Assembly: GCA_003560175.1 (NCBI GenBank)
Contig: PWIZ01000069.1
Span: 1 to 14,553 of the forward strand
Direction: 5' to 3'
Origin: Halomonas sp.
GTDB lineage: Bacteria > Pseudomonadota > Gammaproteobacteria > Pseudomonadales > Halomonadaceae
Length of the DNA: 14,553 bases
Positions within the stretch are counted from its first letter, which is position 1, and each line of letters begins with the position of its first letter. Both the position numbers and the translations under genes were made by a program. Positions 7,204-9,260 of this stretch are shown here, in pieces. A model generated the notes under the pieces. It made no database searches. It saw only the letters and a list, made by a program, of their open reading frames with translations, and was not told the origin of the DNA.

Positions 7204-8190
7204 GGCTGCCGAACACTCGTCGTGGTCATGGGCAGTACCATCAATAGTCTCGACATCCATCGCAGTGGGACCAACCGCCCCAGCTATCAGGTCGCGGCGA
7301 ACTGCTACGACCGCTTGCTCACCTTCGGCACCAAGACGCTGGAGGATGGCTCGTTGAGCTATGACTACGACAACCTCAAGGGCGAGCTGGCCGAGACATG
7401 GGAGGTCTCTGAGGATGGCCGCACCCTGACCTTTACCCTGCGAGAGGCCACCTTCTGGGACGGCCGCCCCGTCACCGCTCAGGATGTAAAGTGGTCGTTC
7501 GACCGCGCCGTGACCCTGGGCGGCTTCCCCACGACCCAGATGGCCGCCGGCTCCACCACCAGCCCGTAGCAGCTCGAGGCCGTCGATGAGAGGACCTTCC
7601 GCATCACCCTGCCCCACGCCTCCAAGCTGACCCTGCCCAACCTCACCACGCCGATTGCCATCTTCATCAATTCCGAGCTTGCCCTCGAGCACGCCACCGA
7701 TGACGTGCCCCCCCCGCGATGCCATGGAGCTGGACGCGCACCCCGACGTGGCGGTGGTCAGCACGCCGATCGAGAACTGCCTCCACGTGCTGTGCCCCAA
7801 CCTTCAGTTCGAGCCCTTTCAGGACGTGCGGGTCCGCCAGCCCATCGCCTGGGCCATTCCCTACGAGGCCATCATGCAGAACGCCGCCTACGGCCGCGGC
7901 GTCCCATGTGGGGCGGTGACAACAGCACCCCGGATGATATCCAGAGGCCCCAACCGTTCCCCCTAACACACCAACCTGGACAGGGCGCGCGCCCTGATGG
8001 CCGAGTCTGACTACCCCGATGGCTTCGAGGTGCCGCTCTCCTTCGACCTGGGCCAGGCCGACTGGGCCGAATCCACCGCCCTGCTGATCCAGGAAGCCCT
8101 GGGCCGGATCGGCATCACCGTGACCCTGGACCGAATTCCCGGCGCCAACTGGCGAACCCGCGCTCTGGTCGACAAGCAGCTGCCGCTGCC
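7204..8190 (+). pseudogene. Decayed family 5 peptide-binding protein gene
   Basis: Remnant of a periplasmic dipeptide/oligopeptide-binding protein, different from the YejA gene at the window start. The mature N-terminus is recognisable (TLVVVMG, then INSLDIHRSGTNRPSY, NCYDRLLTFG, TFWDGRPVTAQDVKWSFDRA). The signal peptide is absent, and a one-base slip separates SAAE from TLVVVMG near 7212. A TAG at 7567-7569 interrupts the frame where a glutamate is expected (SP-stop-QLEAVDERTF). Homology then runs to HATDD near 7700, where a large segment is missing. It resumes in another frame with DAMELDAHPDVAVVSTPIEN. Two further one-base shifts occur near 7904 (GVP to MWGGDNSTPDD) and near 7965 (before TNLDRARALM). 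The final piece ends near DKQLPL at about 8188. It cannot make a working binding protein. Confidence 0.85.
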
Positions 8191-8191
8191 C

Positions 8192-8545
8192 CTGGATGAT
8201 CCACGGCGGGTTATCCCTTCCCCGCGACCCGCCGGACCACCGCTGCTGGAGATGGAGCAGCTGGTCAAGACGTTCGGCAAAGCGGATGGTGCCGATGCCG
8301 TGCGTGCCGTCGATAGCCTCAGCTTCACGGTGCACGAGGGCGAGAGCCTGAATCCCCGCTGGAGTGCCAGGCGCTCGATCGCCGACCCGCTGATGCGACT
8401 GGGCAAGCTGTCACGTCACGATCGCTACCGGCACGTGGAGGAACTCGCCGAACGGGTCGGGCTGCCGGGCGATCTGCTCGACCGTTTCCCGCACCAGCTC
8501 TCGGGGGGCCAGAAGGCACGCGTGGGGATCGCCCGGGCCATCGCC
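8192..8545 (+). pseudogene. ABC transporter ATPase remnant (OppF/DppF type)
   Basis: Two parts of an oligopeptide-transporter ATPase joined in frame. The N-terminal part reads LLEMEQLVKTFGK and ends at LSFTVHEGESL. The next residues are NPRWSARRSIADPLMRLGKL, which normally follow the Q-loop. Walker A and the Q-loop are therefore deleted between 8350 and 8351. The signature PHQLSGGQKARVGIARAIA is retained near 8494-8545, but the gene stops there, so Walker B and the switch histidine are missing. It cannot bind or hydrolyse ATP normally. The permeases that should sit between the binding protein and the ATPase are absent. Confidence 0.85.
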
Positions 8546-8641
8546 GAGCGCTTCGACGTCTCGTGCACGCCGGTGCGCGAGATGGTCGCGCACCTGGCGG
8601 CCATGGGGCTGGTAATCAGACGCCCCAACCGCGGCAGCGCC
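8540..8641 (+). pseudogene. GntR-family regulator fragment
   Basis: About 34 codons matching the recognition helix and wing of GntR regulators: IAERFDVSCTPVREMV, then HLAAMGLVIRRPNRGS. The family norm is VSRTPVREAL, so the first arginine is replaced by cysteine here. The first helix of the winged-helix domain and the whole ligand-binding domain are gone. It is joined in frame to the ATPase before it and the gamma-glutamyltransferase after it. It probably derives from the local regulator of the dead peptide locus (inference). Confidence 0.75.
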
Positions 8642-8863
8642 TTCAGCCTGGACCCGCAGCATGTCAACGCACTGACGCCAGGTAAGAAGACATTCCACAC
8701 CATCACCCCCGGCTTTCTGACCCAGGCGGGCCAGCCGCTGGGCCCCTTTGGCGTCATGGGAGCCTTCATGCAGCCCCAGGGCCAGATGCAGGCGGTGATG
8801 AACATGGTCGATTTCGCACTGAACCCCCAGGCGGCCCTGTATGCCCCACGCTGGCAATGGGCG
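8627..8863 (+). pseudogene. Gamma-glutamyltransferase C-terminal remnant
   Basis: Carries the small-subunit core of gamma-glutamyltransferase family proteins of the YwrD-like type: FSLDPQHVNALTPGKKTFHT, PGFLTQAG, then GPFGVMGAFMQPQGQMQAV, NMVDFALNPQAAL and APRWQW. The catalytic threonine region and the large subunit are missing, as is the C-terminal end, which is cut at about 8863 where an IS30 relic begins. The normal enzyme cleaves gamma-glutamyl bonds in glutathione-like peptides. Its presence beside a peptide-binding protein and ATPase suggests the lost locus handled gamma-glutamyl peptides (inference). Confidence 0.8.
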
Positions 8864-8866
8864 GTC

Positions 8867-9260
8867 TCAAATTCCAAGCGCAACGCTATTGAAGGGTGCT
8901 CGGGCCGGTGACCGACTTCTTGAGCGGGCCGCGGGCATGACGTAGAGCGCGTTATAGATCGCTTCGTGTGAGACCTGGCGGGCAGTATCATCAGGGAGCA
9001 TGCGATTATGTGCGGGCTATCTGCTCCGGTGACCAGACCTTGCGCAGCAGGGAAACCACCAGCTCGAACAGCTCGCCATCGAGATGCAGCTTGGGTCGAC
9101 GGCGACACCGGCAGCGGGTCAGTCGGCCCCGGAAAGCGGCGAGACTGGCATCATAGGACTTGTCAGGCCTGGTCGTGTGGCGTGCCAGTTCCCGTGAGAT
9201 GGTACTGGGCGCACGTCCCGATTGCCGCGCGATGGCCCGGATCGAGTGGTGAGCACGCAT
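8867..9260 (-). mobile_element. Collapsed IS30-family transposase relic
   Basis: The N-terminal helix-turn-helix region is clear on the minus strand: HSIRAIARQSGRAPSTISREL from about 9248, continuing to WSPEQIART and a stop at 9006-9008. In another frame it resumes with RMLPDDTARQ then VSHEAIYNALYVMP, which is the normal continuation, so a frameshift (about two bases lost) lies near 9005. After MP most of the catalytic domain is missing. The sequence jumps to a plausible IS30 C-terminus (APFNSVALGI, TGA at 8867-8869), followed by GACCGCC, as at IS30-type element ends. The 5' end of the gene is cut at about 9260. The element is therefore dead, with its ends kept and its middle lost. Confidence 0.75.

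Follow-up and report, generated by a model that had tools for sequence, protein, structure and literature searches.

Inactivated genes in bacteria are subject to a deletional bias and lose sequence by successive deletions. Short-homology illegitimate recombination or slippage offers a second point of comparison: PMC2884548 reports that, in three bacterial species, 10–18% of variable segments are flanked by repeats of at least 5 b. A third is the gonococcal ggt pseudogene, which according to PMC1262726 carries a nonsense codon and a frameshift and shares its gene neighbourhood with the functional copy in a sister species. The locus analyzed here resembles the first in its mode of sequence loss, the second in that three of its six deletion junctions share at least 5 b and the third in harboring a broken gamma-glutamyltransferase gene.

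The window is a DNA stretch of 14,553 nucleotides from Halomonas sp. that makes up an entire contig (C419) of a 2.63-Mb bin, which comprises 439 contigs and is 72% complete and 4.2% contaminated. It contains an open frame of 304 codons, for which the original prediction had proposed that segments of unrelated genes were joined by four junctions in phase. The composite nature of the frame was borne out by the ORF listing, profile matches and comparison with an intact locus: it consists of five pieces from four genes, namely a solute-binding protein, an ABC ATPase (two pieces), GntR and gamma-glutamyltransferase (GGT), and the four junctions inside it (J3–J6) are all in phase. Along the frame, matches are found in the order SBP_bac_5 (E 0.019, 14.6 bits, below cut-off), ABC_tran (28 bits, cut-off 25), GntR (26.9 bits, just below the cut-off of 27) and G_glu_transpept (75.6 bits, cut-off 27). 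Its start codon is an internal Met of the binding-protein gene, and its final 49 b, as read by eye, lie within the end of an IS30-like element. Pairwise alignment with the intact locus shows a cancelling pair of 1-b changes at 8279/8283, which may be mere substitutions. A single weak PADLOC match, to mad3 (E 3e-5, residues 153–185), sits on the ATPase piece and was set aside as ABC-type similarity by its position. Scans of the window with Rfam (gathering threshold) and for tRNAs gave no match.

The gene pieces are not unrelated, but derive from consecutive genes of one operon. Among 90 genomes of the genus the closest match at this locus is G062 (completeness 88%), whose contig C43 (24,375 b) carries the intact orthologous operon at positions 14968–22716 (7749 b). 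All six operon proteins agree with PWEV01000252.1 from Halomonas sp. isolate T1Sed10_69, a metagenome-assembled genome. The genes are ordered binding protein (550 aa, gene start at C43 15274), two permeases (373 aa, or 347 aa from a later start, and 295 aa), double ATPase (558 aa), GntR (299 aa, or 243 aa from a later start) and GGT (563 aa). Positions 7160–8860 of the window (1701 b) correspond to seven colinear pieces of this region in native order (Table 1). Identity of the pieces to G062 is 93–97%, except for the first ATPase piece with 90% over its own extent and 83% in a longer alignment running past the junction. The left flank is syntenic with C43, at 94.8% identity for window positions 1–4825 and 96.5% for 4897–7212, while the right flank differs. 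Between these two blocks, at 4825–4897 and between two intact genes, about 70 unmatched bases take the place of some 1.34 kb in G062, within which a 169-aa frame is located; this replacement is not a clean short-homology deletion. A second intact operon copy was found in G024 on a contig of 122,344 b.

Curated NCBIfam cut-offs were reached by none of the binding protein, permeases or GGT; at a guess, the presence of GGT would make a gamma-glutamyl peptide the substrate. When 76 loci with the binding protein were collected from genome_contigs and examined by tblastn (E 1e-10), all six genes in the G062 order were seen in one, the G062 record itself; the count includes loci that are cut off before a GGT gene could appear. 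GntR lies directly 3' of the ATPase in five of the 76 (L063, L064, L065, L092, L096). The literature search found no paper linking Halomonas, GGT, ABC transporter and GntR.

Table 1. Features of the operon remnant and its right border in the window. J1–J6 denote deletion junctions relative to G062; shared bases are those common to both deletion ends.
Feature	Coordinates	Strand	Remarks	Basis
Region upstream of operon	7160..7212	+	53 b, 100% identical	G062 C43 14968-15020
J1	7211..7213	+	394-b deletion; 1 b shared	G062 comparison
Solute-binding protein piece a	7213..7708	+	in-frame nonsense codon 7567-7569	
J2	7708..7711	+	218-b deletion within binding-protein gene, out of phase; 2 b shared (approximate)	
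Solute-binding protein piece b	7711..8184	+	straddles frame start at 7997	
J3	8184..8190	+	3084-b deletion, binding protein to ATPase, in phase; 5 b shared exactly, 11/12 imperfectly	
ATPase piece a	8190..8344	+	start of second nucleotide-binding domain	G062 comparison
J4	8344..8351	+	189-b deletion within ATPase, in phase; 6 b shared	
ATPase piece b	8351..8538	+	LSGGQ signature kept	profile match, G062 comparison
J5	8538..8542	+	449-b deletion, ATPase to GntR, in phase; 3 b shared	
GntR winged-helix piece	8542..8626	+		profile match, G062 comparison
J6	8626..8636	+	1714-b deletion, GntR to C-terminal part of GGT, in phase; 9 b shared	
Gamma-glutamyltransferase piece	8636..8860	+	225 b	profile match, G062 comparison
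304-codon open frame	7997..8911	+		ORF listing, profile matches
IS30-like remnant	8863..9262	-		ends read by eye against L015

Measured against the intact operon, the remnant has undergone six deletions and an IS insertion, and it carries two nonsense codons as well as two 1-b indels. The J1 deletion took the operon upstream region, the start codon and the first ~46 codons of the binding-protein gene, presumably with the signal-peptide part of its N-terminus. Piece b of this gene has lost 1 b after 7902, gained 1 b at 7959 and carries a second in-frame nonsense codon at 7964–7966. With the J3 deletion the remainder of the binding protein, both permeases and the first half of the ATPase disappeared, and with that at J5 the ATPase end and the GntR start. 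As judged by eye, the first ATPase piece ends just before Walker A, which lies in the stretch deleted at J4, and the sequence missing at J5 includes Walker B. Likewise, the GGT piece begins after the nucleophile region, placing that region within the deleted part.

In total, 6048 of 7749 b were removed, and the deletion ends share 26 bases in the G062 sequence; the contribution of J2 is approximate because of extra local mismatches at its ends. A total of 26 was reached in none of 20,000 simulated sets in which deletions of similar size were put at random places (null mean 0.79 per junction). Since the shared bases exceed chance, replication slippage or short-homology illegitimate recombination is the most likely mechanism. 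The chain of deletions in a dying locus, as originally predicted, is thus recovered as six colinear deletions with short homology against an intact operon. A literature search on RecA-independent spontaneous deletions gave no match.

On its right side the remnant is bordered by the IS30-like element, of which one terminal inverted repeat is present at ~8863 and the other end is missing; in the alignment to C43 the GGT gene does not resume to the right of it. In comparison to six related copies the element has an internal deletion of about 589 b at ~8923–8932. Judged against distant related copies, this junction shares only 1–2 b and therefore adds nothing to the short-homology case. The 84-aa remnant of the element scores 34.3 bits with the IS30-type transposase profile, below the cut-off of 80, compared to 316.9 bits for a full-length relative in L058. 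A second IS30-family transposase copy (109.7 bits, same cut-off) is located at 12643–13330 on the minus strand and has an internal deletion of about 159 b in comparison to a copy on contig C61 of the same bin. At 9304–12672, with IS30-like remnants on both sides, an ADP-ribosylglycohydrolase-family gene is convergent with an ovoA-type gene (5-histidylcysteine sulfoxide synthase). This pair is also found together in G070 (contig C228, 75%), and positions 9290–14553 have a single match in G062, to an EamA gene only. From its arrangement the pair looks like an acquired or IS-bounded module.

The original prediction had also allowed for an assembly effect. According to this explanation the junctions are artefacts of a fragmented, possibly mixed-strain bin and the real genome keeps the intact operon. 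The low completeness, contamination and high contig number of the bin are in line with it, as is another of its contigs, C14 (3444 b), which has both permeases open together with part of the binding protein and is 98.1% identical to G062 over 2869 b. C14 then turns to an ATPase that is only ~75% identical, and may itself be recombinant or a bad join; the shift occurs at about base 579 of the corresponding locus (L026), right after the permease stop. Furthermore, no second assembly with these junctions was found among the matches listed for genus genomes and proteins or, for the exact J6 pattern, in genome_contigs. Against an artefact stand the colinearity of seven pieces in native order and joins that share just 1–9 b, which is shorter than usual assembly k-mers. 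The pieces differ by ~3–10% from G062, and the single piece with a counterpart on C14 is ~5% divergent from it. Because they diverge in this way and carry nonsense codons and 1-b indels of their own, they are not chimeras of the G062 and C14 alleles. We therefore regard misassembly as unlikely. A relative with intact genes and the same flanks had been named as a sign of assembly error. G062 does have intact genes with the same left flank, but in view of the private nonsense and frameshift changes this fits real decay equally well.

Other contigs of the bin were compared with G062 as well. Eight of ten stretches aligned at >85% identity, each as one block with 89.9–99.1% identity and at most 36 gap positions (26.8 kb in total); the two others (L043, L045) had no match >85% and were left out. 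None of the eight shows a large gap, which again argues against an artefact, although the sample was picked for intact permease domains. In the same bin, all of the best 20 of 36 matches to PF00528 are without stops. Within this sample, the comparison points to decay that is local rather than genome-wide. The 98% identity of C14 was not accepted as proof of a mixed bin, as other contigs of the bin spread from 90 to 99%; this identity mosaic in itself suggests recombination or mixed strains.

As to the open frame, the surprise had been measured by each junction's chance of one in three. J3–J6 are indeed all in the true coding phase, which amounts to 1 in 81 by phase alone and to 1.2% in simulation. 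This overstates the case, since 8 of the 81 combinations of junction phases in the window's own letters leave a frame of 302–304 codons, and 48 of the 81 give at least 200 codons. When both ends of each junction were shifted in the G062 sequence, by 30 b at most, frames of at least 295 codons appeared in 18.8% of 20,000 draws (median 233). The transporter genes at 914–4791 of the window are also overlapped, in other reading frames, by three longer open frames (382, 411 and 457 codons) that seem to be spurious. GC content is 63% in the window and 66% in the remnant. The length of the open frame is within chance and unremarkable, and the frame was chosen after the fact. It would be a by-product of joining pieces from same-strand genes, since stop-free alternative frames are common in GC-rich DNA. 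A point against this reading is that GC by codon position is coding-like in the five pieces (second position lowest in five of five, third highest in four of five), but a recent pseudogene would look alike.

The four successive in-phase junctions are what speaks for deletions sieved by selection for an open frame, which would result in an expressed chimera of binding protein, ATPase, winged helix and GGT. Some selection of this kind had been part of the original prediction, together with dN/dS against intact homologues as a check. With G024 as outgroup, and the GGT piece without one, changes on the window lineage were 18 nonsynonymous (N) to 25 synonymous (S) and on the G062 lineage 6 N to 16 S (p = 0.29, small numbers). 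Three pieces with an outgroup lie entirely within the frame; at 8 S and 6 N they show no stronger constraint than the broken piece upstream (12 S, 8 N; Fisher p = 1.0, again small numbers). The piece straddling the frame start (5 S, 4 N) did not enter this test. For all pieces taken together, pairwise pN/pS amounts to 0.20, in comparison to 0.04–0.42 for six neighboring intact genes. As the ratio lies within the neighbors' range and the excess of N is not significant, the case for relaxed selection rests on the lesions and not on substitutions. These values suggest that most divergence predates decay and that decay is recent.

Further points against a selected frame come from its layout. No sigma-70-like promoter was found in 7100–9310, a weak test in which shuffles give 0.3, and no clear ribosome-binding site is visible by eye just 5' of 7997, where an internal Met would have to serve as start. 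The stop lies within the IS end. As judged by eye, both Walker motifs of the ATPase and the nucleophile region of GGT fall in deleted parts, so the active-site motifs are not kept. Among the best 120 of 4791 protein hits (5.8 billion proteins searched), and apart from the window's own, none covers >56% of the frame. The matches listed for the 90 genus genomes cross no junction by more than ~16 b, and the exact 36-b pattern of J6 does not occur in genome_contigs, a collection that may omit near records. Given chance length, no extra constraint, deleted motifs and the promoter search, we consider a frame maintained by selection highly improbable. If it were true, the translated mosaic would represent the birth of a new gene out of the debris of an operon.

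Taken together, the 304-codon frame is in all probability a by-product within the defunct remains of a single peptide-type ABC transport operon, which was eroded by an IS30-like insertion and six short-homology deletions. Selection on the operon would have been lost first; the IS30-like element may then have entered GGT, the last gene, and slippage or illegitimate recombination between direct matches of 1–9 b most likely removed the deleted sequence. A remnant of this kind would probably yield no protein product. The finding is thus one of ordinary gene decay. It also illustrates that in GC-rich DNA the length of an open frame says little in favor of selection, even when the frame runs through several gene pieces. 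Its value is small and lies in a clean example of six deletions with resolved short-homology ends at one locus, with an intact relative at ~5% divergence.

In comparison to other eroding pseudogenes, the deletions here measure 189–3084 b and bring together fragments from more than one gene of the operon, with an open frame surviving by chance. Short-homology recombination is here seen as several events stacked within one 7.7-kb locus. The gonococcal ggt pseudogene is transcribed according to PMC1262726; the GGT gene of the present locus is reduced to a fragment of 225 b.
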